Below, one piece after another: positions 7,362 to 64,000 of a stretch of 64,000 bases of DNA. This DNA comes from Bacilli bacterium (GTDB lineage Bacteria; Bacillota_I; Bacilli_A; RFN20; CAG-826): the NCBI GenBank assembly GCA_024399115.1, contig JAKSHZ010000004.1:64052-128051 (forward strand), written 5' to 3'. Both the position numbers and the translations under genes were made by a program. Positions within the stretch are counted from its first letter, which is position 1, and every line of letters begins with the position of its first letter. The notes under the pieces are model-generated. The model ran no database searches. It saw nothing but the letters and a program-made list of their open reading frames with translations, and was not told the DNA's origin.

Positions 7362-7430
7362 CGTTTCTTTCCTCTTATAGAAATATATTAATGCAAATTT
7401 CCTATAAATAAAGATTTATTTTATAAATAT

Positions 7431-8165: not shown

Positions 8166-8253
8166 ATTTTATTTAATAAATAAACCAAAGAAAAAAGAAA
8201 ATGTCAATCAATGAGCATTATTCAAGTTGGATAAAATATAAAAATTTAATCTT

Positions 8254-37602: not shown

Positions 37603-37612
37603 AAGACTTCAC

Positions 37613-44025: not shown

Positions 44026-44037
44026 ACGACTACCTCC

Positions 44038-45156
44038 TTAGTTTGTGCCTTTATTTTTATTTACGTATTGATACTTTTGAGTTTGGATTTTATCTGGATT
44101 TGACCATTCAACTTCCTCATGAAGAATATTTATGTCGTATACATTCTTCAAATCTTCGATAAATGGAGTGATATCCTTATTACAAGCTAAACCTTCATAG
44201 CCTTCAAAGTGATACATGAATTTTCCGTTTAGCTGAATTTCAAACTCTGCAGTTTGGCCTGAAGCCTTCAAAGCAACAAGTTTTACGATGTTTTTCTCTT
44301 TGTCGATTTTAAGGTTCTTCTTTGTATCGACAATGAATCCACGCTCTTTTATCGCCTTAATGATGACCTTTAACGTTTCCTTACGTACCTTTTCATCTGT
44401 TATTGCAGCATTCATCATAGCGTTCGCTTCATCAACAGTCTTAGCTTTTTGGACAACCTCTGGAGCTACTCCGTTGGCTTTTAATTCAGCCTTGCATTCT
44501 TCGATTACTTGTCTAGTCTTCTTACCAACTAGTATATCGTATTCAGCTTGAGCTTTTGAAACCAATTCATCAAATCCTAGTCCAGCATTGGCTTCATTCA
44601 CCATTTCACGATATGCCAATTCTCTTAATGACACATCGTCGATTTGATTTATTTTTTCAATGACGGACTGTGAGATATTCAACACTCCATTCATCTTGTT
44701 TAATAGATTTTGTGTTGATTCCTGACCTGCATTTAGCAAGCCTTCATTTATCATTTGGTCTATAACTTCAAGTTTAGAACCAGTCAATTCATTAACTGTT
44801 CTTACGAGGTTCTCGCCTTGTGTTCTTAATGTTGTATTTAGCTGGTTGTATTTTTCAGCTAACGCCTTGCTGTCGGCACCGCCATATCTAACATCCATGT
44901 CGAATGATTGTTTCTTTAATGCCTTATACTCCTCAAGGGAAGCATTGAACTCATTAATCAGTCTTTGGATTTGGTCTTTAGACTTCAATAAATAAGCCTC
45001 ATATTCTTTGACTTTTGAAGTTTCCAATTTGCTTGCAGTCTCATGGATTCTATCCAAGACCTTATCAATCTTACATAATGAATGTGCTGCGGTTTCGCAC
45101 TGAGATTGAATTTGGATAGTTAATCCTTCAAAGTCCACTGTTACCTTATGACTCAT
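44038..45156 (-). CDS. Coiled-coil protein of the helicase operon
   Basis: 372 residues, not recognised. Residues 20-240 are predicted long helices and coiled coils (KIDKVLDRIHETASKLE, KALAEKYNQLNTTLRTQGE). The C-terminal 110 residues (FIVDTKKNLKIDKEKNIVKLVALK, GKFMYHFEGYEG) look like a small beta-rich globular domain. It overlaps the HEPN gene by 4 bases and precedes the AAA+ gene by 12, so it may be an adaptor between them (inference). Confidence 0.6.
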   Translation of the reverse strand: MSHKVTVDFEGLTIQIQSQCETAAHSLCKIDKVLDRIHETASKLETSKVKEYEAYLLKSKDQIQRLINEFNASLEEYKALKKQSFDMDVRYGGADSKALAEKYNQLNTTLRTQGENLVRTVNELTGSKLEVIDQMINEGLLNAGQESTQNLLNKMNGVLNISQSVIEKINQIDDVSLRELAYREMVNEANAGLGFDELVSKAQAEYDILVGKKTRQVIEECKAELKANGVAPEVVQKAKTVDEANAMMNAAITDEKVRKETLKVIIKAIKERGFIVDTKKNLKIDKEKNIVKLVALKASGQTAEFEIQLNGKFMYHFEGYEGLACNKDITPFIEDLKNVYDINILHEEVEWSNPDKIQTQKYQYVNKNKGTN

Positions 45157-47333
45157 TTCTTTTCCTCCCCTAATTCAAATATTTCTTTGCTCCATCTTCT
45201 TAAATCATCTGCTTTAAAGTTTGCAGATCTATCTTCAGGATGGATATAAGCGTTTCTATTCTCTCTGAAATCATGAAGATCTGTAGCAATGTTTCTCTCG
45301 ATAGCACCGCTTCTTCTAGCCTCACTTAACATATCAGAAAGCTTTCCATCTAGTTTGTATTTGTTTTTAAGGATGATTTCCAACTTTGCAGAAAGATTGA
45401 CAAAAACAAATTGATAGTCACCAGATGTAATTTTCTTTTCTACTAACTCTGGTTTTATGTTATTCGGATTTGCTAAAGCAGCATCTAATATATTGAAATC
45501 ATCATTGATTGTTCCGAATAAAGTCATGAAGCCATCAAAATCTTTGAATAGTTCTTGATTTTGTGCTCTGAAGAAATCCACCGTTTTTTGTACACCTTTG
45601 GCTGTATTGAACGTCTTTTTGAATTCAGCTCTGTTTACAGACTCCTCCTCAAATACGTATTTTCTATAATCCTTGATGCCTGTTAGTTCCTTCATCTTGG
45701 AAATACAAGTGTCATAATTGATTAAATCCAATAATGATTTATCTGTCGCCATTCTTGTTCTTAAAGCATCATCAACAGGGTTTACATATAAAACGACAAT
45801 CGACTTATCAAAGCCCTTTTCAACCAATGTTTCATATACTTCCTGCTTGTTTTTGATTTCCTTCAAACTATCAAACAAGCGTGAGATTACATCCTTCAAA
45901 GGAATGTTAAGGAACTTAGGAATAGTATTTGTGATCTTCAATACAGTCTCCAAATTATCCTCGGTTACTGTTTTCAAATAAGCGGAATAGTTTTCTTGAA
46001 GCATTTCTTTGTACTTAGCCATGATGTTTGCGTTCATCATAGCTGTAGGCTTCATTTCATTTAATAGAACTATATTGCTCTCGTAATCTCTATTCAAATA
46101 ACCACTCATGATTTCAGTAGCCTTTGCATAGTCCTTAGACACATTGGTTACTCTTACAAGCGTCTTAAAATTATCTTCAGAATACTCATTAAGATTATTT
46201 ATATAGGATTCAAGTACCTCTTTTAATTGTTCTGAGCTTACCTTTAACCTCAAAACAAGAGGAATTGATATAGTTCCAAGATCCTTATTATTAAAGTTAA
46301 ATACACCAGGAATAAAAGCAAACTTGTTATCTGCTTGGTCTACAACAATGAATTCACAAGATGGATCGTATTTCTGAAGACCTGATACACTTTCCACTGT
46401 GTAATAGTTGCTTCCATTATAGTTACCCTTAGTGATAAGCATCTGTCCTTTTTGCTTCAAAACATCGTCGATTTCCTTTGGAATGATGATGCTAGCAATA
46501 TCTTTATTGGCAAATGCTGATAAATCCAAGCCATCAGAATATGCTGATTTAAACTTGAACTTGTTCTTATAGCCAATGGCTTTGTTTACCATTTCACCTG
46601 TGTAGTTCACGTCGAAGAAGCTTTGTACTGCTTTCTCTTCAAATTCAAAAGATAGCGTGTTGCCTTCCAAAACTACTGTGCAGTCATATTTTCCAGTCCA
46701 GTTCTCTTTTGAGATTTCCTCGACTTTGGTAATAATCTCTTCCTTTTTTATAAGCTCATTCTTTACGACTTTGCCATTCTCATAAATAGGAATTCTCACA
46801 CCTTTATTTTTATTGACGAAATCTTCTACACTCTTATCACATTTGAAAGATGACATAAAATCTTCTGTAATAGCACTATCCATTAATGGCTTAGGTTCAA
46901 AACTTGCTGGGATAGCTAAAGCGAGCTGTCTCATTGCAATGTCATAATAAACAGGTATTTTTGCTTCTTTTGTAACTCCAGTTGGGATTGATTCTTCAGC
47001 GAAGATCTTCTTTCCTTTAGGAGTAAAAGCTAAATCACCTATTCTAATCGTACTAAACATGTTGCGATCATAGTAACCGCCATATCTGGTAGTTAAAATA
47101 TCCTGAGAGATCAGGTTTGCAATCGTGTCTGAATAAATATAATGCAATGAATGAGGAACACCGAAGTTCTCTAACAACTGAGATAACAAAACATTCTTAT
47201 CATTTGACTCGTTGATGAGAACCAAAAGCATGTATGCGATACCTGAAGGCTTTTTAACTTCTGAATACGAAACTATCTCATTTAATTTGAAAAAAGGGAA
47301 TTGTAATGATGTTTCTAATTTGAACTTATCCAT
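45153..47333 (-). CDS. HEPN-domain protein with N-terminal winged helix
   Basis: 726 residues. Residues 1-115 resemble a winged helix-turn-helix (IAYMLLVLINESNDKNVLLSQLLENFGV then IRIGDLAFTPKGKKIF). The middle is mixed with long helices. The C-terminal 100 residues are a HEPN/DUF4145-like bundle with LSAKLEIILKNKYKL and the motif DFRENRNAYIHPEDR (RNxxxH at about residues 692-697), the catalytic signature of HEPN RNases. It overlaps the helicase gene by 8 bases and the coiled-coil gene by 4. Predicted RNA-cleaving effector (inference). Confidence 0.65.
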   Translation of the reverse strand: MDKFKLETSLQFPFFKLNEIVSYSEVKKPSGIAYMLLVLINESNDKNVLLSQLLENFGVPHSLHYIYSDTIANLISQDILTTRYGGYYDRNMFSTIRIGDLAFTPKGKKIFAEESIPTGVTKEAKIPVYYDIAMRQLALAIPASFEPKPLMDSAITEDFMSSFKCDKSVEDFVNKNKGVRIPIYENGKVVKNELIKKEEIITKVEEISKENWTGKYDCTVVLEGNTLSFEFEEKAVQSFFDVNYTGEMVNKAIGYKNKFKFKSAYSDGLDLSAFANKDIASIIIPKEIDDVLKQKGQMLITKGNYNGSNYYTVESVSGLQKYDPSCEFIVVDQADNKFAFIPGVFNFNNKDLGTISIPLVLRLKVSSEQLKEVLESYINNLNEYSEDNFKTLVRVTNVSKDYAKATEIMSGYLNRDYESNIVLLNEMKPTAMMNANIMAKYKEMLQENYSAYLKTVTEDNLETVLKITNTIPKFLNIPLKDVISRLFDSLKEIKNKQEVYETLVEKGFDKSIVVLYVNPVDDALRTRMATDKSLLDLINYDTCISKMKELTGIKDYRKYVFEEESVNRAEFKKTFNTAKGVQKTVDFFRAQNQELFKDFDGFMTLFGTINDDFNILDAALANPNNIKPELVEKKITSGDYQFVFVNLSAKLEIILKNKYKLDGKLSDMLSEARRSGAIERNIATDLHDFRENRNAYIHPEDRSANFKADDLRRWSKEIFELGEEKK

Positions 47334-50300
47334 TTATTCTAGCCTCCTTGTCCTCTAATACATCGATATCATCTATCACCTTGCCATACTGCTCGATGGT
47401 ATATAAGATTTCTTCATAAACTCTGAAGTTTCTTCTATCGTTTCCTCTACCGTTTACATCTGGCAAATCAATGACACCCTTAGACTCAAGGTATCTTCTA
47501 TTACCAACCATAACAAGCATTCTTCTGGCTCTAGATAAAGCAACGTTAATTCTTTGATAAGCAAGAATGAATCCAGGATTTGACTTAGCAGGATTTTCTG
47601 GATTTCTTACGGTTGAAAGAATTATTATGTCTCTTTCGTCACCTTGGAAATCATCTACCGTACTAACAATCATCTTTTCTACATCAGTCTTGAAAGCATC
47701 TGTTTTAACTTTCTCGCTCTTTAATATTTCTTTTATTCTTCTTGCTTGGTCACCATATGTACAGATGACGCCAATACTTAGTTTTTCTCTGTCAGGGTTG
47801 CGTTTGAAATAATCATTTAATTTTCTGATTAACTCAGCAACAACCTTAGCCTCGCCAGTGTTATACATAGAGGTTGAATCTTGTTCATGAGTTTCGTTCT
47901 TTTTGCAATCTACAAAATAGATATGTTTATCAGGTTCGATGATGCTTCTACCATTTGAGATAAGCTTAACGTTATGTTTCTTGGTGTTGTTTTGACCAGC
48001 AAATCCAAGTTTCAACTCACCTTGATAGAAATGGTTAAATACATTCATGATATGCTCATGGCAGCGGTATTGCTGTACAAGCATCGTCTTATAGCTTTCA
48101 GGAATTCTTTCAAATAATGTCTTAAAGAAGCATTCTTCATAAAGGGCAGTAAACTTTTTATTTATGTCCTTGTTGATGATATTTTCATCTAATCCTTCAA
48201 AGTCATCGTCTCGCAATTTAGAGAATTCGTACATTGGAGGTAATTGTCTGTGGTCACCAACCAAAATTACTGTCTTACCATATAAAATTGGAATAAGCAG
48301 ATCAATGAAGCTAGACTTTGAAACCTCATCAATGATTACCACATCAATACCAACAGACTTTATATCTACATCATCGATGTTGTATTCAGACAATGCATCG
48401 ACGTTTCTTCCACTAAATCTATCGTTTGAAGTACAAGTGATACCGAAAACATTAGCATTATCAAATAAATCCTTAGTGTATTCTTTACGGTCAGCTTCAA
48501 TAACATCTTCCATTGATAGATAGTTAGATATCTTTTCGTACATAGGAATCTTTTCTTTATTTTCCTGCTCCTTACGTACAAAATCGTTCTCAAGTTCATC
48601 CCATCTTCTCTTGATGATTGTCAAAGCTTCATCGATATCCTTATATGGTTCTGCAATTTCAAAATCCTTGAAGAACTTATTGATTTCAGATTCAAGCTTA
48701 CCCTTGTTCTCTTGGATATCTTGCACGTCGTCACGTTCCTGTATTTCAATGATTGAGTCATTAATTCCCTTAATCTGGTTTTTAAGAACTGCGATTTTCT
48801 CTTCAACGCTATTAAATTTAGTCTCAACCGCATTTAGCGATCCATTGACTTCCTCAATATACTGAACCTTTCTTTCAATGATATGTTCCTTCAATGATTC
48901 TATGGTTCTCTTAATTGAGTCAACATTTGCAACCAAATATGCGTAATTGAAGATAGTTCCTAACTTTAAGTCAGTCGGAGCAGAATCTGTTGTTGCATCA
49001 ATTTGCTTTTTGATGGAAATCAATTCTTTACGTAATGCATCATATTCGTCTTGCTTTTCTGGAATTACATCATCGTATTCGTCTTTGCAAGCGTCCATTT
49101 TGCTCTTTATTTCTCTTCGCTTAACTTCAAGGATAGTTTTGTTTGATTCAGGATTTACAACAGCGAGTTCTCTTTCAACCTCGTCCATCTTTATCTGGTT
49201 GATATTCTTAACTAGTAAGCCAAGGTCAATGTCTACAAATGTATTCTTGTCGAATAAAGAACCTAAATCATCACGCAATCTAATGATGAATTGTGTACTA
49301 ACATCTTCATCAGGTCTTAGATTATCGTTTTCAATATGACGTTTTGTTCTTCTCAAAACATCAAGTTCAATTCTAATATCATCTCTAGAGTCTGATAATG
49401 TCGAAATTTGAGAATTAAGCTCTTTAGCTTTCAATTCCAATCCAGTGATTTCCTTATTGGCATCGTCTAAAACCTTTTGAGACTTTTCAATTTTTGATTT
49501 CAATAGCTTTAATTTATCGTATGTTTCTGAGAACTCTTCCTTATTTCTTCTGAAGTTTCTATACCTATCAACGGCTTTTTTCATGTTTGTACTGATATTT
49601 CCATAGAAATTATCGACAAGGAATTTAGGATCGTACTCATTATCATTCTTTTTATTATTATTTGATGGAATAAGTCTAATAGGTACAATTTCAGCTATTT
49701 TTGGCAATCTCTCAAATACGTTATCAATAGCCTTATGTGTTTCAGAAGATATAAGTACCTTCTTACCTTTCTTTACCATCTGAGCAACCGTCTCTGCTAT
49801 GACTTGTGTTTTACCAGTTCCTGGAGGACCTTGTAATAAGAATATTCCATTACTAGACACAGCTTTTCTTACAGCTTCTTTTTGTTTTTCATTTAACGAT
49901 TCCAAATACCATGTCCAATCACCGTACTCTGCTTGCACACTAGATAAGCTTTCTGGATTAAAAAGATATGTTGAAAGATATGGGTTCTTTACAAATCCAC
50001 TATAGAAGTTATTCAATGCAGTTTCTTGTCTAGAAATCTTTGCTTTTTCAGCTCTGTTATCATAAACAATATACTTACATGCTTTGATTGCTTTTATTTG
50101 TTTATCGTTAATAACGTTATTAGCATCGCCAAGTCTGAAGTATAAAGAGAATCTGATGATTGTTTCTTCTTCAATCACTTTTTCTTTGTCAGCTTTTAAT
50201 TGTGTATCTAATTGCTCTTTAATAGAAACTTTCTCGGTTCTAATATCGTCTTTGTATTTGTTTCTTAGCTCAGTATTCTTTTTAGCTTCGTATTGAGTTA

Positions 50301-51861
50301 CTTGGCGTTTTGCAGCAGATATTAATGATGCTTCATAATCAGCCAGCATCTTAATGTTTCTCTCAATATATAGAGCTTTGACATCGATTTCTGAATAGGC
50401 ATCCTCGATTAACGAATTTAATCGTTCCTTATAAGCCTTTTCTTCTTCATCTTTTGCCTTCTTTGTTTCTTTAGTTAATTTCGCTTTAATTTCAGCTTTT
50501 AGCTTAGCTATTTTTGAAAGAACGCTTGAGTCAGCGTTGATCTTAACATCATCATTTAGAGAATCATCTAGCTGTTTTTTTCGTTCTAATAATTGCTTCT
50601 TAACCTCGCCATCAACTTCGTTTTGGTATGCTGCTATAGCTTTGCTTAATTCGTCTTTGATGACTTTCTCATATTTTGCATCAATTGCTTTATACGATTT
50701 ATCTATATCAGATTCATATTGGTATGCTAATTGTTCCAAATGCTCATCTGGTTGTATATCAAAGGAAACAATTCTAAATCTATCTCCTAAAGCATAGCCA
50801 GCATTCAATAATTCGCCAAATTGAATTCTTTGTAGATTTCCATTTCGATCTCTATATTCAGAATTTCCTTCTGGATTTTTTGCAGTAATAAATACATTAT
50901 CGCTAGCTAATGAACGGATTTTTCTTTCTTCTTCATTAACCATTCTGCCACGCTTACTTATACGTGCTTCATAGAATGCTTTTTTGTTTCTATCAATATT
51001 TAATCTTACTAATGGGAATGGTTCAGCATCCTCAATTTTTGAAGACAATACAACCATTTCACCTTTAGTAAAGTCTTGAATCCCATCCAATATATAATCA
51101 TCGTAAATAGATGAGTTTTTTCTATAATCTTTTCTGTTAACAGCATATGCTTCAACATAATCAGCTGAATCTAATAAAAAGTTTCTTTTAGATTGCTCAT
51201 CAAGATAATATTTTCTAAAGTTAATGTATTGATTCCATTCTTCAAAAGTTCTACGGATCTCTGAAGGATTCTTGACTGTATAACAAGATTGAATAAGTTC
51301 GTATACGAAATTTGGAGTGAACAGAGTATTACCCATATCAACTCTATCTATAGTCCACACGCTAAAAGTAACCATTTGTCCCATTCTGCTCATGCTTTGA
51401 GACTTTGCAAATGAACTACATGCTTCCGCATTTACTATCATGTCATTAGGAGATGACATCGATGCATCTATAAACTGGATTCCTTTAATTTGAAGAACCT
51501 TTGCTTTATTACTCTCGTAGATATCTCCAACCAATATAATATTTTGATTGTCAGGAAGATACCTTCTCATGCTTAAAGTAAGTTCAGGTCTTACTACAAC
51601 ATTTCTTAAATACGAAGGAGCACCACTTTCTCTTTGTTCCTTTTCACGTAAAAAGTTAGGACAAGAAATATAATATTTCTTTGTCATACCTGTCGGAAAG
51701 CAAGCTTCGATAAAAGATTGGAATGAGCTTGTTTGTCTATCTAATGGTATTCGTTTTTGAAGAAGTTTGAATTGTTCGTTTAATGATAAATTGTAGAACT
51801 CATTTTTTATATTTGTAGTTCTATCAAGATGATCCACGAACGATAAAAATAAATACGCCAT
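47326..51861 (-). CDS. Giant UPF1/DNA2-like SF1 helicase with coiled-coil insertion
   Basis: 1511 residues. Residues 1-390 are unrecognised; 395-590 are coiled coil. The SF1 motor begins at LNEKQKEAVRKAVSSNGIFLLQGPPGTGKTQVI (motif I about residue 685). A coiled coil of some 370 residues is inserted before motif II VVIIDEVSKSSF (about 1175). QYRCHEHIM (IV region), STVDDFQGDERDIIILS (V) and INVALSRARRMLVMVGN (VI) follow. No nuclease motif is seen. It overlaps the HEPN gene by 8 bases. The family acts on RNA or DNA; the substrate is open. Confidence 0.88.
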   Translation of the reverse strand: MAYLFLSFVDHLDRTTNIKNEFYNLSLNEQFKLLQKRIPLDRQTSSFQSFIEACFPTGMTKKYYISCPNFLREKEQRESGAPSYLRNVVVRPELTLSMRRYLPDNQNIILVGDIYESNKAKVLQIKGIQFIDASMSSPNDMIVNAEACSSFAKSQSMSRMGQMVTFSVWTIDRVDMGNTLFTPNFVYELIQSCYTVKNPSEIRRTFEEWNQYINFRKYYLDEQSKRNFLLDSADYVEAYAVNRKDYRKNSSIYDDYILDGIQDFTKGEMVVLSSKIEDAEPFPLVRLNIDRNKKAFYEARISKRGRMVNEEERKIRSLASDNVFITAKNPEGNSEYRDRNGNLQRIQFGELLNAGYALGDRFRIVSFDIQPDEHLEQLAYQYESDIDKSYKAIDAKYEKVIKDELSKAIAAYQNEVDGEVKKQLLERKKQLDDSLNDDVKINADSSVLSKIAKLKAEIKAKLTKETKKAKDEEEKAYKERLNSLIEDAYSEIDVKALYIERNIKMLADYEASLISAAKRQVTQYEAKKNTELRNKYKDDIRTEKVSIKEQLDTQLKADKEKVIEEETIIRFSLYFRLGDANNVINDKQIKAIKACKYIVYDNRAEKAKISRQETALNNFYSGFVKNPYLSTYLFNPESLSSVQAEYGDWTWYLESLNEKQKEAVRKAVSSNGIFLLQGPPGTGKTQVIAETVAQMVKKGKKVLISSETHKAIDNVFERLPKIAEIVPIRLIPSNNNKKNDNEYDPKFLVDNFYGNISTNMKKAVDRYRNFRRNKEEFSETYDKLKLLKSKIEKSQKVLDDANKEITGLELKAKELNSQISTLSDSRDDIRIELDVLRRTKRHIENDNLRPDEDVSTQFIIRLRDDLGSLFDKNTFVDIDLGLLVKNINQIKMDEVERELAVVNPESNKTILEVKRREIKSKMDACKDEYDDVIPEKQDEYDALRKELISIKKQIDATTDSAPTDLKLGTIFNYAYLVANVDSIKRTIESLKEHIIERKVQYIEEVNGSLNAVETKFNSVEEKIAVLKNQIKGINDSIIEIQERDDVQDIQENKGKLESEINKFFKDFEIAEPYKDIDEALTIIKRRWDELENDFVRKEQENKEKIPMYEKISNYLSMEDVIEADRKEYTKDLFDNANVFGITCTSNDRFSGRNVDALSEYNIDDVDIKSVGIDVVIIDEVSKSSFIDLLIPILYGKTVILVGDHRQLPPMYEFSKLRDDDFEGLDENIINKDINKKFTALYEECFFKTLFERIPESYKTMLVQQYRCHEHIMNVFNHFYQGELKLGFAGQNNTKKHNVKLISNGRSIIEPDKHIYFVDCKKNETHEQDSTSMYNTGEAKVVAELIRKLNDYFKRNPDREKLSIGVICTYGDQARRIKEILKSEKVKTDAFKTDVEKMIVSTVDDFQGDERDIIILSTVRNPENPAKSNPGFILAYQRINVALSRARRMLVMVGNRRYLESKGVIDLPDVNGRGNDRRNFRVYEEILYTIEQYGKVIDDIDVLEDKEARING

Positions 51862-51888
51862 GTTATTCCTCCCTAAATCTATGCAGTA

Positions 51889-52401
51889 TTACTTGTTCTT
51901 GTATGCTTCGAATATTTCAAGATAATCAATAAACTGCTTAATTTCAGCTGTTGAAGAACCATCAGCTATTTTTGCTACTTTATCTAATAATACAGTTCTT
52001 GTAAATTCATCTAATCCATCAAATTTTTGAAGTGACACAAGTTGACGTTTAAGAGCAGCATTTTCTTTACTTAATGTTTCAATCTCCATAGATAAGCTTT
52101 CTATAGATGCAATAGATTCTTTTTTGTCCTGAATAGAACCCTTTAGAATGCTTGAAATTCTATTAACATACTGTGCCAAAATATCGTTATCTGACTCGTC
52201 TAAAACTAATTCAAGATCTTCTTTTGTTTCCTTACCGAAAAGATAAAAAATCTTAAACTGTTTATCACTTGGAATATCTCCAAAATCATCTAGATTTCTA
52301 TAATTGTAAATTGTAGCTTTTGATATTTCTAAGTATTTAGCAAGGTCATTTACTTTAATTGAAAACTTTGTAACTAATCTTTCAAATAATTTTGTTGTCA
52401 T
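51889..52401 (-). CDS. HTH-coiled-coil protein heading the helicase operon
   Basis: 170 residues from the ATG at 52401 (ribosome binding site GAGG). Residues 8-45 suggest a helix-turn-helix (SIKVNDLAKYLEISKATIYNYRNLDDFG). Residues 90-135 are a coiled coil, and the tail is helical. It lies 27 bases before the helicase gene and directly after the promoter at 52434-52462. Probably an operon regulator or a small subunit. Confidence 0.65.
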   Translation of the reverse strand: MTTKLFERLVTKFSIKVNDLAKYLEISKATIYNYRNLDDFGDIPSDKQFKIFYLFGKETKEDLELVLDESDNDILAQYVNRISSILKGSIQDKKESIASIESLSMEIETLSKENAALKRQLVSLQKFDGLDEFTRTVLLDKVAKIADGSSTAEIKQFIDYLEIFEAYKNK

Positions 52402-52433
52402 ATATATCACCTCAAGGATTTGTCTTTTACACT

Positions 52434-52462
52434 ATTATATTACATTTTTCTAATTTGGTCAA
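52434..52462 (-). promoter_or_regulatory. Promoter of the RNase III-helicase operon
   Basis: Minus-strand TTGACC, exactly 17-bp spacer, TATAAT, 33 bases before the HTH gene. Confidence 0.7.
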
Positions 52463-52544
52463 TAATTCGGCATTTAAAACATATCAAAAAGAGTAAAAGA
52501 ATGAATACAATATTCTAATTTAGACTATTTTAGACTGTTTTAGA

Positions 52545-52582
52545 TAAATAAAAAGCCCTATATTTAGTGTTTAAGGGCTAAT
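52545..52582 (-). terminator. Terminator after the tail/recombinase chimera
   Basis: Minus-strand stem AGCCCT / AGGGCT with a 14-base loop followed by TTTTATTT, 10 bases after the stop. Confidence 0.7.
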
Positions 52583-52589
52583 TTTATTC

Positions 52590-54500
52590 TTATTTTGTTA
52601 TTTCTATTCCGTTCTTGAATACAAACTTAATTGTTCCATTCTCATCGACTAATGCATCCTGAATCATCAAGTTCCATAGGTCTGTTGAGAATTCATCTAT
52701 GACGGCTTCTTTATCTTCTAAGGAAGCTATGAAGGCATTGAGTATTTCAATCCTGTCTAGCTTTGATTGCTTTTCCTCTAGCAAGGATTCCATTTTGGCT
52801 TTAGATGAATTGAATTGGTTTACCAGTTCTTTGTAGTGCCTTTCATACTCTTCTTGGTCTTGGTTTCTTCTGGCGTTGTCGTGGATTAGGTTCTCTACCA
52901 ATAGCTGAACCTCCTCCATCTCGTTTGCTAAGGCTTGAACCTTTGCGTCTATTTCTTCTGTTGAGGTTAGCATTTCGACTACCGCTTTGGTGTCCTCTAT
53001 CAACCCTTCCTTGTTATCCATCACCTGGTTGTAGACTTCTATGAACTTCCTGTTGACCTCGTCTTGGCTAAGGTTGGGTGACTTGCATCCGCATTTGTAT
53101 TTGCCGTTGCATTGCAATACCTCTTTTCTGTGGATCGAGTTGGAATGCCATACCTTGATCCCGAAGAAGTGCCCGCATTCGGCGCATCTTAGCTTTGCCA
53201 AGCCTAACCCTCCTAGATTCCATCGCCAGACATTTACAGCACTTCCGATGTCCTCTGAATCCATTATCAGCAATTCATATGGCTCGCCGGTTGGACTTGA
53301 ATGAAGCACCACGTTGCCTCCAGAGTTTCCGGTTATAAGTTTTGTAGCTGTTGATACGGCAGAGTTCACTAAGCTAGGGAATCTGTCCACACTCTTTTTC
53401 GTTGTTTCAACCTCATTGCTTATTGTTCTTACGTCGTCAGCTAGGTTGGCTTTTGAGCTTCCTAGTGTTATCGACGTGTATTTTTCAAGCAATGTGTCAT
53501 AGGATGTTTTGACCACCTTAGTTTTTATCGTCACACCTAATTCTGAGTGTCTGACCGTTACCGTATCGCATAGTGACACCCTTTCTAGAACAGCGACGAA
53601 CTCTGGTTGCTTCCAAAGGGCCTCAAACGAGATGTTTATCGTTGGCGTTTCGATGCCTAAAGGATTGTTTTTTAAATATTTCTCTGCCTTTGCCCTTAGA
53701 TGTTCTTCGTCTATAGGCTCGTCATCATCGAACGAATCAGTAAAATCCTTAATTACGTTCTTTCTTTTTTCCAACGTAGTAGATATTGGTATTAGCTGTT
53801 CGGGAAGTGTGATGACCACATCGTTTCCTTCTTCATCTTGTTTGACCGCGTAAGGAAGCAAATCCGTATAAACGTCAGAAACATCGGAGTCGTGGTCGAA
53901 TTTGGTTAGGTTTTTGCCATATTCGATTACTACTCCGTTATTGTTGCCTCTCCCTTGATGATGGATGATTTTGAAGTTGTCCCACTCGAACTCACCGCCC
54001 CACTCGCTCATCAAACTTCCTGCAGAACCGCCTAGACATGCTCTTATGCTTTTGGGCTTATCAACCATGAAGTCCTTGGCGGATGAATAGTCGGTTCTAA
54101 ACGTGAATTGATGAGGGATTGTTGCATTCCCTAGAACAGCCTCCATTGCTTGCGTTGGTGTGGCGCCAGTTAATGAAAACGGAGTGACCGCGATGCCCGC
54201 GAGATCGTAAGAGATGTGCTGAGCATATACACTAACCACCCCATTGATAGGTATTGTAATTCGGTAGATTCTGAAAGCTTGGTTGGATGACGTATCATTA
54301 GGTTTTGCCTTTATGATTCTCTCCTTCTTTAGTTCACGGTAAAGACTACCGTTTGTCGGATATTTCAAGGTAAGCTCGTATTTGCCGTTTCTTTCTTCAG
54401 TTACAATGCATGACGTCGTTTCCGATAAAGCACCAATACCATAGGTATTGAAATTGGTTGCATCAGCTTTATATAGAATTGGTATCATAAGCTCACCCAC
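52590..54500 (-). pseudogene. Chimeric ORF: phage tail protein N-terminus fused to large serine recombinase C-terminus
   Basis: 636 residues. Residues 1-430 match siphovirus tail-endopeptidase/minor structural proteins (MIPILYKADATNFNTYGIGALSE, YAQHISYDLAGIAVTPF, then VWRWNLGGLG as in tail spikes). From about residue 432 it changes to the zinc-ribbon and coiled-coil C-terminus of a large serine recombinase: RCAECGHFFGIKVWHSNS, LQCNGKYKCGCKSP, NARRNQDQEEYERHY and the ending GTIKFVFKNGIEI. The catalytic resolvase domain is missing. An in-frame prophage deletion best explains it; unlikely to work as either protein. Confidence 0.75.
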
Positions 54501-55201
54501 CTTGGTATTATCTCGACGCTAGTTATCCCTCCTTCAAAAGATATAGAGTTTAATCCAGGTTGCAATTCAGGGAATCCATCGCCTGAGACCGTATCGTTCT
54601 TAGGAGTTGTGTCATGATAGAAATTCATTAATTCAGAGTCGCATTCCGTATAACCGTTTAGAGTTTCAAATTGCCATACCTTATTGTTGATGATAAGGCT
54701 TCCTGATCCTCTTCCAATCACCTTGATGTAAGGTTTTGAAGAAAATGCAAATTCATTATTTAGAGTGAAGGATGAATCGTGAGTTTCCTTTGCTAAGCCA
54801 GAAAGTAGATATCTGAATGGAACGCACGAGAAAGTAATGGTAAAAACCCCAATCTTTAGTGCTTCATCGGTTATATCAAGTTTGCTGTTGAACACCGCTC
54901 TTCTCTTGAACTTCGCGTCATAACTGTCAGTTAAATCGTGGTATCTGTCTGGTTCCTTGTAGAGCCAGTTTTTAATTTTTGTTAGCTTGTCGCATAGTTC
55001 ATCTATGGACTTTGCTGGTACATAACAGGTATAGGAAACAGTGACGTTTGCGTATCTTCCGTTTGGAGATATTAAGTCACCGTTCCTTCCTGGTATTGTT
55101 GTAAGATTTGCATCGTACTTAGGAGCTGAATAGATGTTTTTTGTTTGAATTCTGATACCTAAGCTTTCACTAGATATTCCATTGTAGATTAAATAACTCA
55201 T
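54485..55201 (-). CDS. Phage distal tail (Dit-like) protein
   Basis: 238 residues. Start SYLIYNGISSESLGIRIQTKNIYSAP, then TTIPGRNGDLISPNGRYANVTVSYTCYV and the C-terminal galectin-like PYIKVIGRGSGSLIINNK, as in siphovirus distal tail proteins of Firmicutes phages. Apparently intact. It overlaps the tape measure fragment by 4 bases and the chimera by 16. Part of a decayed prophage. Confidence 0.82.
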   Translation of the reverse strand: MSYLIYNGISSESLGIRIQTKNIYSAPKYDANLTTIPGRNGDLISPNGRYANVTVSYTCYVPAKSIDELCDKLTKIKNWLYKEPDRYHDLTDSYDAKFKRRAVFNSKLDITDEALKIGVFTITFSCVPFRYLLSGLAKETHDSSFTLNNEFAFSSKPYIKVIGRGSGSLIINNKVWQFETLNGYTECDSELMNFYHDTTPKNDTVSGDGFPELQPGLNSISFEGGITSVEIIPRWVSL

Positions 55202-56217
55202 CCGAAAACCACTCCTTTCCTCTTTGCAAAATTACTTGCTGTTTCCATTATCTCTTCAGTAAGACTGTTGATGTCTTCCTTTGAGTAATTGTTAAAGTTA
55301 GCTATGCTAAGTTGTAACGATAGACCGCCTAATGGTTGACTTATGCCGTTTCTAATGCTTCCTGCAGTACTTGAAACATTGAAGTCTGTAGGAACACCGC
55401 TCATGTCAGCGGATAAGTCATCAAACACGGAATTCAAATCCTTAGTCATATCATTCGCTGAATCGATGACCTCGCCTGCTGTCTCATCAATGCCTCCGGC
55501 TAAGCCCTCCATCAACATATCTCCGATCCATGCCATCTTCTTTGATGGTGAATGAATACCGAAGAAGTTCTTTATTCCGCTCCATAGATCACTAGCCCAG
55601 TTTGAAACCTTATCCCATATCCAACCAGCTAAGCTTTGTATACCTTCCCATAAGCCTTTTACTAGGTTCTTTCCTACATCGGCCATTTGTGAGAAACCGG
55701 ATGCAAAACCATTAATGATTGACGATAGGATTTGAGGTATTGCCTTAACAATTTCTATTATGATTGTCGGTAAGTTTTTGATTAAACTTGTAAACAAATC
55801 GATACCGCATTGGATAATCAGCGGGATGTTAGATACTAAAGCATTTATTATCGAATTGATGATCGTTGGAATAGAAACAAGCAGCAACTCTATGATGGTT
55901 GGTAGAGCTTGTATCAATGAAGTAAATAGATTAATGCCTGCCTCAATGATTAATGGCAGGTTCTCTACTATCGCATTGATGATTCCGTCAATGATCACAG
56001 GTATTGCCGTTAATATCCCCTCTATGATGGTTGGAAGCGCCTCGATAAGACTGGTAAATAATTTAATGCCAGTCTCAATGATCTGCGGTATTGATCCTAT
56101 TATGAAATCCACTACAGAAACGATTAACTCCGGAAGCGCCTCAATTAACACCGGAATTGCATCAATAACCCCTTGTGCCAGCCCACTGATTAACTGCAAG
56201 GCTGCATCAAGAATCAT
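55198..56217 (-). pseudogene. Tape measure protein, C-terminal fragment
   Basis: 339 residues. Tandem helical repeats of the type GLAQGVIDAIPVLIEALPELI and LFTSLIEALPTIIEGILTAIP fill residues 1-180; the end GIHSPSKKMAWIGDMLMEGLAGGID is the usual tape measure tail. The frame begins inside the last codons of the upstream chimera in another register, so the gene is cut from its N-terminal half and the central part is missing. Confidence 0.8.
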
Positions 56218-58486
56218 TCTTCATTGCAGTGATATTCTTCTTCATCGAGCCAGTCAAAGTCTCAACAGATACGTCCACAAGTTCAGCAGCGTACATATAC
56301 TCTTGAAGTTTCTCAGCAGATATTCCAGTAACTGTGCTTTCTGTAAGAACGGTATCAGCATAAGCTGCACCTTCCTTTGTCATGTCGACTAAGGCTTTTC
56401 CTGCCGCAACAGCCGCAGCTGTGACCGCCGCAAATGCTGCAGCCATTGTCGCACCAACCGCTTTACATACGCCGCCTAATGCCTCGAATTTGCCCTTGGA
56501 ATCGTCTGCCTTATCCGCTGCATCTTCAATATCCTTGCCCATTCCCTTTGCAGAATCACCGGCTTCATCCATGCCTTTATCGGTCTTACTCAAGGCTTCA
56601 TTGTTGTCCTTGAGTTCCTTTTCCATCTTATTCAACTCTGCTTGAGCATTGTTGAGCTGGATTTGCCATGCTTGGGTTCTCTTATCGTTTTCACCAAAAG
56701 ATGATGCGGCATTTTCAAGAGCTGAACGCAAGACTTCTATCTTTTGCTTTTGTGTATCTATGGACTTCCTTATATCCATTTGTTTCGATTCACCGCTTAA
56801 ATATCTGGACATCGATGCGGCTGTGATGCCGTTGGTTTCAAAATGCTTAGTGTTGTACTCGTAAAGATCAATTAGCTCCTTAATGCAACTACTTAGACTC
56901 TCTGAATCCTCAATCAATCTAATGACCTTCTTTTCGGCATCTAGATTTCTCTTTTTCATTTCTGCCAAATCGCTGCGAGTAAGCATATTGTCAAAGTCAT
57001 TGGATAAGGTAATTTCGTATTTCATATCGTCTTCTATGCCTTTGCATAGGTAACAGAACGTTGTGACATTCTTGCTTGAGATGTATGATTTGCCGCTTTT
57101 AACCTTGAATTTAAGAGCACATTCATCCATGTGCCTCTTCGCATATTCTGTGATTACCGCATCGCCGTCATCGTCCCTGATTACATATTTTTCATCATCG
57201 TAAATGACATGGTTATCTACGTAGATGAAGTTCTGCAGATATATCATGCCCAGAAGGTTGTAATCGTTCCTCTGGCTGTATGCTTTTATGAATTCTTCTT
57301 CTGTTATCGAATAGGATTCATCATACTTTAACGAGCCTTTTTTATAAGAATGGGCATCTATATACCTTTCTTTCTCTCTATCCCATTCGAATACGCTTAT
57401 CCCATCAAGGAAGCCCAACTCCCTTAGTCGCTTCTTTATCGCTGGAATGGTGACACTGAACTCAGATCTAAGATCGCTAATCATCCTATCCATGAATTCT
57501 ATAGGCTCGGCTTTTTCGCTATAGGTTTTATAAAGATATTTGGCTCTGTTCTTGAATGTCTCCTCTGGCATTACCAAATATGGAGCAATACCATTCGCTT
57601 GAGATTCCATGAAGGACTCATTTTCGTTTGTTTCCTCTATCCCGCTAACAGTTCCACCGTTGACACAAGAAATACAGGAAATATGACCATTAGTTATGAA
57701 TTTGGCAAATATGAATGCTTTCTTATGCAAAGCGTAATGGACGCATTCATGAGCTATAGTGATCTCCTCGCTTCCGTATGAATACACAGAGTGACATGCA
57801 GGATCATATAGGATGGTATTTGCTGGAACCGTAACTTCAACTTGCTCATCTCTGTTTTTGTCATAGAAAGTGGTCTTTGTTTCTGCAAAATAAATCTGAC
57901 CGAATATCGCTTTGCCTTTTTCAAAAGCGAACCCTGAATTCAACGGTTTAACCGCTAGCCCCATCTTGCTGGCGAGTTCTCTTGCCCTTATAGGCTTATT
58001 CAAGTCATAATCTGGACCATAATACTGTTTAATGATATCGACAGCATATTTAGAGTATTCTGCTGCGCTAATTATCGGAACCATATCTCCATTCAGAGGT
58101 TTATGTTTTGCTTCTTTTTCATATGGCTCTGGACCATATAGCCTTGCTTTCTTCAGCGCATTTAATTTCGCAGAGCCGTGGATGACGATCCATATATTCG
58201 AAGCACAGTCCGAATCATGGTCCGCTCTTCTTTTAACGTATCTTATGAATTCATAGTTAACATCGCATCTGCACACGACATCAAAATCAATGTCGTTTTC
58301 GCCTTTATCCTCGATATACACCGCTTCAACACTGTAATCTTCGAGTTCAGGATGCATAACTCTTACGTCATCGTCAATTTGATCGCGTATGAAAGAAGGG
58401 TGTGATGAAACATATCCATTTAATCTCTCATAAATGGAATCATAGTAGTATTCTTCAATAAATGATTTAAACGTATTATTTTTCAT
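56207..58486 (-). pseudogene. Chimeric ORF: ImmA/IrrE-like metallopeptidase fused to tape measure N-terminus
   Basis: 759 residues. The first 550 hold an ImmA/IrrE-type peptidase with zinc motif HECVHYALH (about residues 246-254) and NESFMESQANGIAPYLVMP (third-ligand helix). From about residue 567 it becomes the coiled-coil start of a tape measure protein (RKSIDTQKQKIEVLRSALEN, then an Ala-rich membrane-like segment), ending out of frame with the next fragment. A large deletion between the immunity and tail regions of a prophage explains it. The peptidase part may still be functional. Confidence 0.72.
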
Positions 58487-58538: not shown

Positions 58539-60746
58539 TTACATTACCTCCACTACTTTCGCGTCGACAGTGCTGACAAATGCTTTGATGAAGGACAGGA
58601 TCACTCTATTCTTATCTTCGTCTTTCTCGATAGCATCGTAGAATTCTCCGTAGAATAGAGAGAATAACACAATCGGTTTAATGATTTTGTTTTTTGTCTT
58701 AGAAATTTCATCTGATGATGCAGATAAACCATAGACCTCGCTTCTTAATTGATCGGAATCTAGGCACAACTTAACGGTAATTTTCTTATTGACCGTATCT
58801 CTAGCCACGTCGCATATCAATGTTGCTTCATCTAAGATTTTAATATCTAAATCTAGGCTTTTTGCAGGGTTATTGTTTTCTTTTTCTGGAGTCTTTTCGT
58901 TTTTAATCTCGAAGGTGATCTTCTCTGATTCAAGCGAATAAGCGTTATTCTTGAAATACATGAATTGGAACGTGTAAGTTCCTGGCTTTAAGACTCCCGC
59001 ATTAATAGTGTATTGTATTCTTCCGTTCATGAAGTTTCTTTGGATGTCTCCAAAGTTTCTGTCATTCATGAACGTATAAATTAAAGCTTCCTCGTTGATG
59101 TGTTTTTGAGCCTTTGTTGTAACAACAAAGACAACATTTTCGTCCCTATAGAACTCTCTTTTTGGCGAAGTGATATCTAAAGAAACGATATGGTCTTCGT
59201 ATATTTCTTCTGGAGTTGGATTGTAGTGATGCCCAGGCTTGCCAGGAAGCACTGTACCAGTCTTTAAAAACTTGCTGTACTCGTTCTTTACCTGGCGAGA
59301 AACTTCATCTAACAAATCTTGGTCTATTGATGACGAAACAGACTTCTCACCAATAATACCATTGATTTCAATCAGTTTTTCGGTTGAGGCAAGAGCCTTG
59401 ACTACCTTATCTAAGAAACCATGAGTAAGGTCGCTATCAACGATTCTTGCTCTATCCGTAGTGAAGAATTTGTATTTTTCTGTTTCCAAAACGTCAAGAT
59501 TAATTACTACCATTAATCTATAACGCAGGAAATTTAGACCAGCGTTATTAAGTTTTGTGTATCTCTCTGTTGTAATAGTTTGCCCGTTTACTGTATAGAT
59601 GATCGGATCATAATATACATTGAACTGCTCAAACACTTTCTTACATTCAGATTCGCTGCCCCACTTCGCTTCATCGTTCGGAAGGAGCATATAGTAATCT
59701 ATATTATACAAGCGATTATTGTGCTCAATTTTGATAGTTCCACAGTAATCCTTCTTAACGTAACGTTTGGAAGTTTTTAATTTGAGTTGAGAACCGTATA
59801 CCGATCTGTTTTGCAAATGGGCATTTGATGAATAATCTGCTCTGTTTTCTATCACCTTAACAGGCAAACCAACGTTGAATAACTCTGTATTAAGATAGTC
59901 GCCAAGCATTCCTGGCTTTGTAACTTCATTATCTCTGAATCTTTTTGAAATTTCAGATTCAACCATCCTAACTAGAGTTCCGGACTCCTCTTCTGCAATG
60001 AAATCTTCTAAGTATAGGTCATCACATTTGAAACCATCAAATTCGACTTCAGGAATTTGATCTTCTAATGTCATATAGACATATACCATGTTCTTATAAT
60101 CTGTCAATTCAACACGCTTGATGACAGTAAATGACACCTTACCATTCTTCTTTGACAAGATTATTGTCGCATATGTAAATGGCAAAGAGGTTGAACCACC
60201 TTGACCGAATGCACCAATCAAATAAGACTTATCTCTAGATAATTTATTACCATGATTGATGGATAAGATCGTATTCTCGAATTCACTTCCAAGTAGACCA
60301 GTACCTTTATCAATAATGTCGAATGTTGGCTTGTTTGATCTTGAACCGTCGTTTACAGCTAATATTACTTGGTCTTCAGCATCTTTTGCAGATGATCTAT
60401 CAGCGCTGTCGTTCATGACATCCTGCATATTGGAGTAATAATTAGGGAACGCCTTTTTAATGATTACTCTAGAATCTTTTGCTGTTCCAATACCGCATTT
60501 GTTCTTTTGCTTTTCAATGACAGCATCAATAGCATTAGTGATTCGCTCTACTAATCCTTTCTCTCCACTTGTAAGCTGACCTACGTTTGAGCCGTTAGAG
60601 CTGCTGTTTCCTAAAAAGCGGTAATTCGCTTTGATTTTGTCGTAAGAGAGGTCTCTCTCGTTAAGATCGAGACCTGTGTACTTCTTTAAGAAGGCATCAA
60701 CTTGCGACTCTTTATAAATAGAAAGCACTTCTTCAATTCTAATCAT
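58539..60746 (-). CDS. GHKL (HSP90-like) ATPase partner of AIPR
   Basis: 735 residues. GHKL motifs: N-box LVERITNAIDAVIEKQ (about residues 66-81), G1 FDIIDKGTGLLGSEF, G2 LIGAFGQGGSTSLPFTYA. The centre has RYKLMVV-type strands typical of the ATPase-transducer fold, and the C-terminal 250 residues are beta-rich then helical with no recognised nuclease. It follows the AIPR gene by 18 bases and shares its promoter, so the two form a two-gene defence-like unit. The partner's phage-resistance role is known for the AIPR family; the joint function is inferred. Confidence 0.78.
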   Translation of the reverse strand: MIRIEEVLSIYKESQVDAFLKKYTGLDLNERDLSYDKIKANYRFLGNSSSNGSNVGQLTSGEKGLVERITNAIDAVIEKQKNKCGIGTAKDSRVIIKKAFPNYYSNMQDVMNDSADRSSAKDAEDQVILAVNDGSRSNKPTFDIIDKGTGLLGSEFENTILSINHGNKLSRDKSYLIGAFGQGGSTSLPFTYATIILSKKNGKVSFTVIKRVELTDYKNMVYVYMTLEDQIPEVEFDGFKCDDLYLEDFIAEEESGTLVRMVESEISKRFRDNEVTKPGMLGDYLNTELFNVGLPVKVIENRADYSSNAHLQNRSVYGSQLKLKTSKRYVKKDYCGTIKIEHNNRLYNIDYYMLLPNDEAKWGSESECKKVFEQFNVYYDPIIYTVNGQTITTERYTKLNNAGLNFLRYRLMVVINLDVLETEKYKFFTTDRARIVDSDLTHGFLDKVVKALASTEKLIEINGIIGEKSVSSSIDQDLLDEVSRQVKNEYSKFLKTGTVLPGKPGHHYNPTPEEIYEDHIVSLDITSPKREFYRDENVVFVVTTKAQKHINEEALIYTFMNDRNFGDIQRNFMNGRIQYTINAGVLKPGTYTFQFMYFKNNAYSLESEKITFEIKNEKTPEKENNNPAKSLDLDIKILDEATLICDVARDTVNKKITVKLCLDSDQLRSEVYGLSASSDEISKTKNKIIKPIVLFSLFYGEFYDAIEKDEDKNRVILSFIKAFVSTVDAKVVEVM

Positions 60747-60764: not shown

Positions 60765-61979
60765 TTATCTGCCCATCATCATGGTAGTCATCTTGACTTG
60801 CATGAATAATGTTTGCCAAAGGTTGCTGTTCTTTCCTGTTGCATTAGGATTGTTACCTAAGTCACGTGACATTTGGATCGTGCTAGCAACTAAGCTATTT
60901 CCAAGTTCATTTAGTAATGCAATTGGATCTGATAACCATTCGTATTTGCCGTTTTTTTCAACAACTAAAGCTCTGAATGCTCCGATAATCGGATAAAGGA
61001 ATCCATTAGGAGAGCTGTAGTCCATTTCATATTCATAGAACTTGGATTTGTATTTTTCTTTTCCAGGCTTTACCATGCTTACGCCAGTGATTGAACCGTA
61101 TTTCTTAACGCCGGTTGCTTCACCTTTATAGAATTCAGGCATTCTTCTCTCTAATTCATCATAAAGCTTAGCAATTTGAGGCATAATGTCCTTCATTTTG
61201 TAATATGGGTTAGTTGTTTGGTCGTTTTCGTGCTTCTTATGCTCCTCAATATAGAAATCAGTGCATGACTTCTTGCTTGAGTATGAGTTAATTGGCATAG
61301 GTGAAAGCTTGTCTGTTGGATACTTATCAATATTGAATAAGTTAAGAACGGCAAGAATATCAGCGACATCGATTCTCTTGACATCGTTTTGCTTATAGCT
61401 GATATCCCCGAAGAATCTTTCGTTTCTGAAAGCATCCTTGATCAATTCGAATCTATTCTCTAATTCAGCGATAGATTGATCGTTAACTTGAACTGAAGTA
61501 TTTCTAGCGCCAGCTAATTGTTCGAACATATCTTCGATGCCTGTTAGAACTTCCACTTTAACATATTGTTCGCCAGCCTCTAATTGATCTCTGACGTCTT
61601 TGATAATTGTGTAAGTGTGTCCACCATCGACGTTTCCGTGCACTGTTAAATCTTCAAATAAAACAGTTACTACATTCTCTTCGTTGTTATAGCTGACTGA
61701 TTTTGCAGAAAGCAAAATTCCTCTATTGAGAAGATAGAAATTTCTTTCTGTATGGTTAGTTAATGATGTTTGAATCTTCTTTGCGACTTTAGTCTTCTCG
61801 TTTTGCATTCTAGGATTTGTTCCCATTGGGATGTCTGTTGGTAAATCCTTAACGTCGCAAATTAATACGTACATTTCTGGTTTAGTTTCACCTACATTTT
61901 CAGACTTAATGTAAGGGTTTGGAATCTTTCTAAAGCTTGAAACTTTGAACTTTAGTTCCATTCTGTTGTTATTGCTCAT
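60765..61979 (-). CDS. AIPR (abortive infection phage resistance) family protein
   Basis: 404 residues. The segment NFYLLNRGILLSAKSVSYNN, the motif HGNVDGGHTYTII and the later GARNTSVQVNDQSIAELENRFELIKDAF are characteristic of AIPR proteins. The family is linked to abortive infection systems; its enzymatic activity is not certain. First gene of the AIPR-GHKL pair, with ribosome binding site AGAGGTC and promoter at 62059-62087. Confidence 0.85.
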   Translation of the reverse strand: MSNNNRMELKFKVSSFRKIPNPYIKSENVGETKPEMYVLICDVKDLPTDIPMGTNPRMQNEKTKVAKKIQTSLTNHTERNFYLLNRGILLSAKSVSYNNEENVVTVLFEDLTVHGNVDGGHTYTIIKDVRDQLEAGEQYVKVEVLTGIEDMFEQLAGARNTSVQVNDQSIAELENRFELIKDAFRNERFFGDISYKQNDVKRIDVADILAVLNLFNIDKYPTDKLSPMPINSYSSKKSCTDFYIEEHKKHENDQTTNPYYKMKDIMPQIAKLYDELERRMPEFYKGEATGVKKYGSITGVSMVKPGKEKYKSKFYEYEMDYSSPNGFLYPIIGAFRALVVEKNGKYEWLSDPIALLNELGNSLVASTIQMSRDLGNNPNATGKNSNLWQTLFMQVKMTTMMMGR

Positions 61980-62058
61980 CTGTGAGACCTCTTTCTCTGC
62001 TTCATTTTCTTAGCCAAGCAGTGGCTTCAATGCATACAGGATTACCTCATGCACTTAT

Positions 62059-62087
62059 ATTTTATTCTAATCGTGTATTTCTCTCAA
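62059..62087 (-). promoter_or_regulatory. Promoter of AIPR-GHKL with embedded TACACGATTA
   Basis: Minus-strand TTGAGA, exactly 17-bp spacer, TAAAAT. The spacer contains TACACGATTA, the motif arrayed at 40844-40914. The divergent XRE gene starts 59 bp away. Confidence 0.6.
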
Positions 62088-62145
62088 CGTCATATATAGC
62101 GTTTTGATATTTATTTTGATATAATATCTTTAAGAAGGTGATAGA

Positions 62146-62400
62146 GTGTCTAAGAGAAAATCCAACAAGGATCTGGGTTATCGATATAGATTAGGGCAGA
62201 ACATCGCTCGAATCAGAAAACAGGAAACCGGATATACTCAAGAAGACATGGAATTGTATACGGGCGTTTCACGTGCCTATTATGGAAGGATCGAGCTCGG
62301 AGTTCACGCTGCATCAATTGATGTGCTAATAAAAATAGCGGACGCGTTAAACGTTCCGCTATATAGATTATTTTTAGATGAGAATGATAAACCAATTTGA
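62146..62400 (+). CDS. Cro-like XRE regulator
   Basis: 84 residues starting at GTG with ribosome binding site AAGGTG. A single helix-turn-helix domain: YRLGQNIARIRKQETGYTQEDMELYTGVSRAYYGRIELG, then AASIDVLIKIADALNVPLYRLF. Close to the small controllers (C proteins) of restriction systems in size and layout. Divergent from AIPR-GHKL and next to the DpnII-type operon, so it may control either. Confidence 0.82.
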   Translation: MSKRKSNKDLGYRYRLGQNIARIRKQETGYTQEDMELYTGVSRAYYGRIELGVHAASIDVLIKIADALNVPLYRLFLDENDKPI

Positions 62401-62474
62401 TTATTAATCTGTAAATAATATATGGACCAATTCTTCTAAAAAAGGCACACCAGATTATTGATGTGCTTTTTCAG

Positions 62475-63017: not shown

Positions 63018-63026
63018 ATTTTCCTC

Positions 63027-63878
63027 CTAGAACTCGCTTAAAATATTATTTTCTAGCTCTTTTATACAATAGATGGTATCTAAAACATCAAAAGTTTCTT
63101 TAAGGTTATTTCTTGCAGAAATCCAGCCTAAGCCATCGGTAAACCAAACAAACTTAAATCCATCTATACCTTTAGACTCTAAAGCTAAAGTTTTGTAACT
63201 TCTTGCTGTTTCGTTTAATTTCGATCCACCAGAAGCATAGAAATTGCATTCGCACGCATAGATGCATTTGTCAGAAATGATAACGTAATCAAATCGCTTT
63301 GCTGTATTACCAGAATTTGATAATGCAGATAAATCAAGTCCAGTTCGCTTTTCCAAATCGGATAAATACATTTCTTTAAAGTAGGTTTTGTTTTTGATGA
63401 AACCAGCTTTTTTTATGTAGGATTCAACTAAATCTTCCATAAGATGTCCACCACGATTTTTTCTTCCGTTTGAATTTAATCCGGCTTCAACACCTATAAC
63501 ATAATCATACAAATTACTAACAAGGTGCTTTTCCATTAACTCAAACAGACCTGTTTTTCTCATGAATACTACATATTCTTCTACTGAATAATTTAGTTTT
63601 TTAAAATCATATGTGAATGAGCCTTCTTCATCCATGCAAAAAATATTCATTTCTCTTTTTGCAAGAAGAATTGGAATACATCTCAATACAGAAGGATATT
63701 TGGATACCAAATTTCTGAAATCAACTTCGATACTTTGTGAGCCGATTAGTGAATTCATCATATTAAGTTCGATTTTAATTGAATCTGCATTTTTATAGAC
63801 AGTGTCAAATTCAACATAATATGAATAATTAGCTATGCTTTCTCTAAACGAAGAAAGCCAAACATTAAAATCCTTCAT
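63027..63878 (-). CDS. DpnII/MboI-type restriction endonuclease
   Basis: 283 residues from the ATG at 63878 (ribosome binding site AAAGGGG, overlapped by the methyltransferase end). Family features: MNSLIGSQSIEVDFRNLVSKYPSVLRCIPILLAKRE, GLNSNGRKNRGGHLMEDLVESYIKKAGF and the catalytic core FDYVIISDKCIYACECNFYASGGSKLNE with KSYKTL-like helix. It cleaves GATC in known members. It follows an adenine methyltransferase by 2 bases, as in DpnII operons. Confidence 0.9.
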   Translation of the reverse strand: MKDFNVWLSSFRESIANYSYYVEFDTVYKNADSIKIELNMMNSLIGSQSIEVDFRNLVSKYPSVLRCIPILLAKREMNIFCMDEEGSFTYDFKKLNYSVEEYVVFMRKTGLFELMEKHLVSNLYDYVIGVEAGLNSNGRKNRGGHLMEDLVESYIKKAGFIKNKTYFKEMYLSDLEKRTGLDLSALSNSGNTAKRFDYVIISDKCIYACECNFYASGGSKLNETARSYKTLALESKGIDGFKFVWFTDGLGWISARNNLKETFDVLDTIYCIKELENNILSEF

Positions 63879-63880
63879 AG

Positions 63881-64000
63881 TTAAAAGCCCCTTTCTGTAC
63901 ATAAAGCATCTATTTCTCTCCACCCCATACCTCGCATGAAGTTGGCTGCTTCATAAACCGAAGCCCCTTCGAACAGAAGCTTATAAATGCCTAATCTTTT
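63881..64000 (-). CDS. C-terminal end of a DpnA-like DNA adenine methyltransferase (5' part outside)
   Basis: The last 39 residues are visible, ending YEAANFMRGMGWREIDALCTERGF. This resembles the C-terminus of the second (DpnA-type) N6-adenine methyltransferase of DpnII systems, and the position directly before the nuclease agrees. The catalytic part is beyond the window edge. Confidence 0.6.
   Translation of the reverse strand, partial: KRLGIYKLLFEGASVYEAANFMRGMGWREIDALCTERGF

Follow-up and report, generated by a model that had tools for sequence, protein, structure and literature searches.

The core head genes of "Candidatus Heliusviridae" encode the terminase, the portal protein, a Clp protease, and the major capsid protein (PMC9226167). 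The term "grounded" prophage, together with the argument attached to it, has been set out elsewhere (PMC6379469). An intact relative of the locus described here is Anaeroplasmataceae phage NatCom_34063 (PV036447.1; 63,197 bp), which belongs to "Candidatus Heliusvirales" and carries the following genes.

6441-8348, ImmA-like gene
47977-50613, tape measure
50610-51326, Dit
51323-53836, Tal

Downstream of Tal come a holin gene, further genes, and two genes for serine recombinases; the stop of the second one is at 63081 of 63197. In the window (the whole stretch of 64,000 nucleotides that was analysed), a set of phage ORFs maps to PV036447.1, all of them in unchanged order and strand.

52590-54500 (read from 54500), minus strand, fused Tal/recombinase ORF, 636 aa, GTG start, open throughout
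52593..53198, minus strand, large serine recombinase C terminus, ~200 aa, with zinc ribbon and coiled coil (residues ~435-636 of the fused ORF); PF13408, phrog_95
53193..53207, minus strand, junction J3, Tal to recombinase
53202..54500, minus strand, Tal (prophage endopeptidase tail protein), truncated, making up residues 1-433 of the fused ORF; PF06605, PF18994, phrog_1067
54485..55201, minus strand, complete Dit (distal tail) gene; PF05709, phrog_33; 72% identical to that of NatCom_34063
55198..56217, minus strand, tape-measure C-terminal part, 339 aa; 76% identical to the C terminus of the NatCom_34063 tape measure
56205..56225, minus strand, junction J2, internal tape-measure deletion, out of frame
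56210..56770, minus strand, N-terminal part of the tape measure, starting near residue 59 of the full-length protein, with the frame kept across J1; phrog_10613
56764..56782, minus strand, junction J1, where the ImmA-like protein runs in frame into the tape measure
56770..58486, minus strand, ImmA/IrrE-like (Peptidase_M78) regulatory protein without its C-terminal ~68 aa; PF06114, phrog_4031

A tail protein fused to a recombinase C terminus

The original prediction of an in-frame fusion between a tail protein and a large serine recombinase, with no stop between them, is borne out by the 636-aa ORF, whose halves are assigned by Pfam and PHROGs. Translation passes from AVNVWRWNLGGLG directly into LAKLRCAECGHFFGIKVWHSN, and the sequence spanning the join is VWRWNLGGLGLAKLRCAEC. 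Both N-terminal domains of Tal are present (Prophage_tailD1, PF18994, at residues 26-95; Prophage_tail, PF06605, at residues 162-355, E value of 1.2e-20), TIGR01665 of NCBIfam matches the Tal part with an E value of 4.6e-37, and Tal-type PHROGs families reach residue ~435 (phrog_1067 at 8e-124). This part amounts to about half of the ~750- to 900-aa protein of relatives; the C-terminal half, after the GLG motif, is missing, and recombinase sequence stands in its place. Here, Zn_ribbon_recom (PF13408) matches residues 436-490 (E value of 8.6e-6), and the integrase family phrog_95 matches residues 436-635 with positions 376-580 of its 651-position profile. The retained recombinase part is thus the equivalent of residues 321-525 of 529. 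The resolvase catalytic domain (PF00239), which is present in a relative (L083:41493-43079), was absent from the fused ORF in the Pfam search, and the "Recombinase" domain is lost as well. Judged from the sequence, the fused arrangement is not a matter of chance, the two halves being strongly homologous to two different proteins. With neither the resolvase nor the "Recombinase" domain, and with Tal deprived of its C-terminal half, the fused protein most likely has no activity or function.

When the codons are aligned with those of relatives of Tal and of the recombinase, J3 falls within ~5 codons. In the Tal relatives, GLG is followed by a conserved [FY]S..GYNGP[YF]ET stretch, and the recombinase relatives have a short stretch of the F[SA][SA]K type ahead of the zinc ribbon. 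The junction can be confined so narrowly because the window reads GLG-LAKL, while the relatives continue differently on each side.

Three probable deletions within 6 kb

When the window is aligned to NatCom_34063, three gaps appear within 6 kb, corresponding to J1, J2, and J3; the Tal/recombinase fusion is only one of these junctions, and the other two had been missed by the original prediction. The tail genes are collinear and 65 to 76% identical overall (67% for Tal, and 65% over 106 aa for the tape-measure N-terminal part). The recombinase C terminus is 37% identical to residues 321-525 of the NatCom_34063 recombinase, and the ImmA-like part matches the gene at the left end of that phage with 32% identity across ~570 aa. 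The ImmA-like protein of the window keeps an HExxH motif (HECVH). J1 joins residue ~573 of the ImmA-like protein to residue ~59 of the tape measure. At J2, relatives have at least 855 nt between two conserved parts of the tape measure (~1 kb in NatCom_34063), whereas in the window these parts abut in different frames; the C-terminal frame can restart at an ATG that overlaps the stop of the preceding ORF. Compared with NatCom_34063, ~40 kb are missing at J1 and ~9.8 kb at J3, and compared with relatives, ~0.9 to 1.1 kb are missing at J2; these sizes are approximate, the recombinase and ImmA-like parts being only 37% and 32% identical to those of the reference phage.

The expectation that the fusion arose by a deletion inside a prophage agrees with the layout of intact relatives, in which Tal and recombinase are separate genes on the same strand and in the same order, 6.2 kb apart in two viral contigs (L070 and L073), 9.7 kb in a third (L012), and ~9.8 kb in NatCom_34063. 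Because the collinear alignment shows three gaps, one of them at J3, the fused ORF is, on this comparison, one of three deletion scars. J1 produced a second in-frame deletion fusion (56207-58486), of the ImmA/IrrE-like protein (phrog_4031) with the tape-measure N terminus, which would appear in an annotation as a chimera of 759 aa.

The two halves occur apart in relatives

A homologue covering the full fused architecture in many intact phages would have spoken for a natural protein family, that is, for a phage tail protein that carries a recombinase zinc ribbon; such homologues were sought and not found. Matches in genomes of the host family (224) and of the order (279) cover either the Tal part up to residue 435 or the recombinase part from residue ~429, and in the order set the break between the two sets of matches lies near residues 430-436, with no true homologue over both halves in the 279 genomes. 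One weak match that spans the junction (residues 397-459, in genome G244) proved on inspection to be a frameshifted recombinase gene and was rejected as a fusion. Neither half is present in the two other genomes of the host genus. A protein search of six loci from genome contigs likewise yielded no homologue of both halves.

Among viral contigs, the Tal half has 262 related loci; searches there with the recombinase half and with the ImmA-like part, by a method that detects close relatives only, returned no relatives. A degenerate pattern of the J3 junction, which was validated by its recovery of the window itself, had zero matches in the viral contigs and, with two mismatches allowed, none in the family's 223 remaining genomes. 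A few records of the phage collection align beyond residue 435, which could be taken in favor of a natural family. However, the best two (H2 and H19) lack the zinc ribbon and are ordinary Tal proteins, and the recombinase half searched by itself gave no significant match to them, so that they were rejected as fusions. The halves are kept apart in the 61 matching genomes of the order as well as in the 262 viral relatives of Tal, which themselves continue after GLG with the conserved stretch described above. With a true two-half homologue found nowhere in the material searched, a natural family is extremely unlikely and was rejected.

A single chimera might also be maintained for a function of its own, e.g., with a recombinase-derived DNA-binding part placed on a tail-protein fold, and the 636 open and undamaged codons are compatible with this. 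However, the arrangement occurs once, the neighboring junctions reflect the same process, and the outcome of J2 is out of frame. Furthermore, a chance deletion preserves the frame with a probability of one in three, and for two or more of three deletions to do so the probability is 7/27. We found no positive evidence for a functional chimera and rejected it as very unlikely.

Apparently recent deletions, with misassembly unlikely

The four phage ORFs contain zero stops in 1,972 codons, and ~235 nonsense changes are expected in them per substitution per site, which would put neutral drift since the deletions at under about 1.3%. Among 150 residues that are invariant in 28 to 37 distinct relatives (61 in the tape measure, 27 in Dit, and 62 in Tal), none is changed in the window. 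Taken together, and assuming no selection, the two counts would put neutral divergence since the deletions at roughly half a percent or less. Because the ORFs are free of stops and the invariant residues unaltered, the deletions look recent. The original prediction had offered a choice between a recent deletion and a maintained product. The first agrees with these counts, and the second is not needed, because once the join is in frame (one chance in three), the next 200 residues are simply the native recombinase frame.

Genes without decay are also what would be expected of a live phage, and the genome is fragmented (188 contigs, 91.5% complete), so that a metagenome assembler might have joined nonadjacent pieces of an intact prophage. 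However, such an artefact would require the assembler to have erred three times independently, always with collinear pieces of the same strand, and the missing pieces that were tested are on no other contig. A query with the major capsid gene has no match in the assembly, while the same query finds a match of 75% identity in a relative (G117) as a positive control. A full-length recombinase query finds only the fused C terminus, and hence neither a second copy nor the N terminus. A portal query, run without a positive control, also has no match in the assembly. Because three collinear false joins would be needed, misassembly is unlikely.

A probable grounded prophage remnant

We consider it very probable that the locus is a grounded (cryptic) prophage remnant derived from a "Ca. 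Heliusvirales"-like temperate phage, with three deletions, of which J3 created a fused ORF most likely devoid of function. According to this model, the three internal deletions would have taken out ~51 kb of a ~60-kb prophage. The one at J3 would have run from the middle of Tal across the lysis-side genes and ended shortly before the zinc ribbon of the recombinase, where the frame was presumably kept by chance, leaving an open frame of Tal N terminus and recombinase C terminus. Loss of its own excision enzyme would have grounded the prophage, and the ImmA-like regulator and the cargo genes to its left may still be able to act.

The recombinase required for excision is inactivated, retaining only the part described above, with no further copy in the assembly. 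The virion genes are lost or broken: the tape measure has lost its frame, Tal is cut short, and the major capsid gene is absent. We infer that neither self-excision nor particle production is possible for the remnant. A tailocin was considered as well and rejected, given the broken tape measure and the absence of further tail genes from the remnant. Because the capsid gene is absent and a portal gene was not found, the remnant is best described as derived from "Ca. Heliusviridae"/"Ca. Heliusvirales" and not as a member.

Prophage ends and adjoining defense genes

The recombinase lies at the right end of NatCom_34063, in agreement with the proposal that the fusion marks the probable right end of a serine-integrase prophage, although the flanks share only words of 11 to 13 bp, with no convincing att repeat. 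Because the contig stops 2.65 kb beyond the window, the left end of the prophage may be outside the contig. Left of the ImmA-like gene, the following genes were found.

58539..60746, minus strand, 735-aa protein between AIPR and the ImmA-like regulator, in the probable left-end cargo slot
60765..61979, minus strand, AIPR (abortive infection phage resistance) protein, probable cargo; PF10592, E value of 1.5e-30
63027..63923, minus strand, DpnII restriction endonuclease, probable cargo; PF04556, E value of 2.6e-101; PADLOC REase_II

Directly beyond the window, the adjoining locus L104 carries two genes for adenine methylases (PF02086, PF01555) and one for a DUF7004 protein. The probable cargo (60765-63923 and L104:932-3366) comprises the DpnII endonuclease, the two adenine methylases, one of which has an N-terminal HTH_3 domain, DUF7004, AIPR, and a 180-aa unknown protein. 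The 735-aa protein has zero matches in Pfam, PHROGs, PADLOC, and NCBIfam and is perhaps an uncharacterized defense gene. Homologues of the ImmA-like protein stand to the right of the cargo region, at the left end, in NatCom_34063, phi-SsUD.1, and phi-SC181. Because the same slot holds cargo in these three phages, the DpnII system, AIPR, and the 735-aa protein are by analogy probable left-end prophage cargo, and this cargo may be the reason why the remnant persists. A further step would be that selection keeps the remnant as a stripped, locked prophage whose ImmA-like regulator and restriction/abortive-infection cargo protect the host, the fusion then being what a selected grounding event left behind; we regard this as conceivable but doubtful.

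Two further gene clusters of the window were noted. The prophage's right end is adjoined by an operon-like run resembling a defense-type cluster (41676-52410), which encodes a small HTH-like protein, a 1,511-aa superfamily 1 helicase (best PADLOC match, MkoA), 726- and 372-aa proteins without a Pfam match, an AAA_2 ATPase (PADLOC PDC-M37B), and a radical-SAM protein. Two C5-cytosine methylases beside an SNF2-type helicase (35728-39725) form another restriction or defense cluster.

Comparison with known systems

The remnant is of a kind already known, namely, ordinary prophage decay, caught early. It provides a clean example of prophage reduction in which large deletions preceded nonsense mutations and point decay is not yet visible, and it cautions that annotation may take the open frames left by such deletions for chimeric proteins; knowledge of serine recombinases and of phage tails is unchanged by it.

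NatCom_34063 shares with the remnant the order of ImmA-like gene, tape measure, Dit, Tal, and, after further genes, serine recombinase at the right end. It likewise has restriction-type cargo left of the ImmA-like gene (a DNA methylase and GmrSD restriction genes), whereas the restriction system of the window is a different one. It differs in having full tape measure, Tal, and recombinase genes as well as head and lysis genes, compared with which the window is short by ~51 kb. In Streptococcus suis phi-SsUD.1 and phi-SC181, the flank gene rum is followed, as in the same scheme, by a cargo region, the ImmA-like homologue, and the phage genes, and in phi-SsUD.1 two serine recombinases come after the lysis genes. 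However, these two carry resistance genes as cargo, are deposited as complete phages, and are free of fusions in the parts consulted. Grounded (cryptic) prophages resemble the remnant in that excision functions are lost while other prophage genes persist; those compared represent another phage type and host, and in the remnant of the window a serine recombinase is truncated by fusion with a tail gene.
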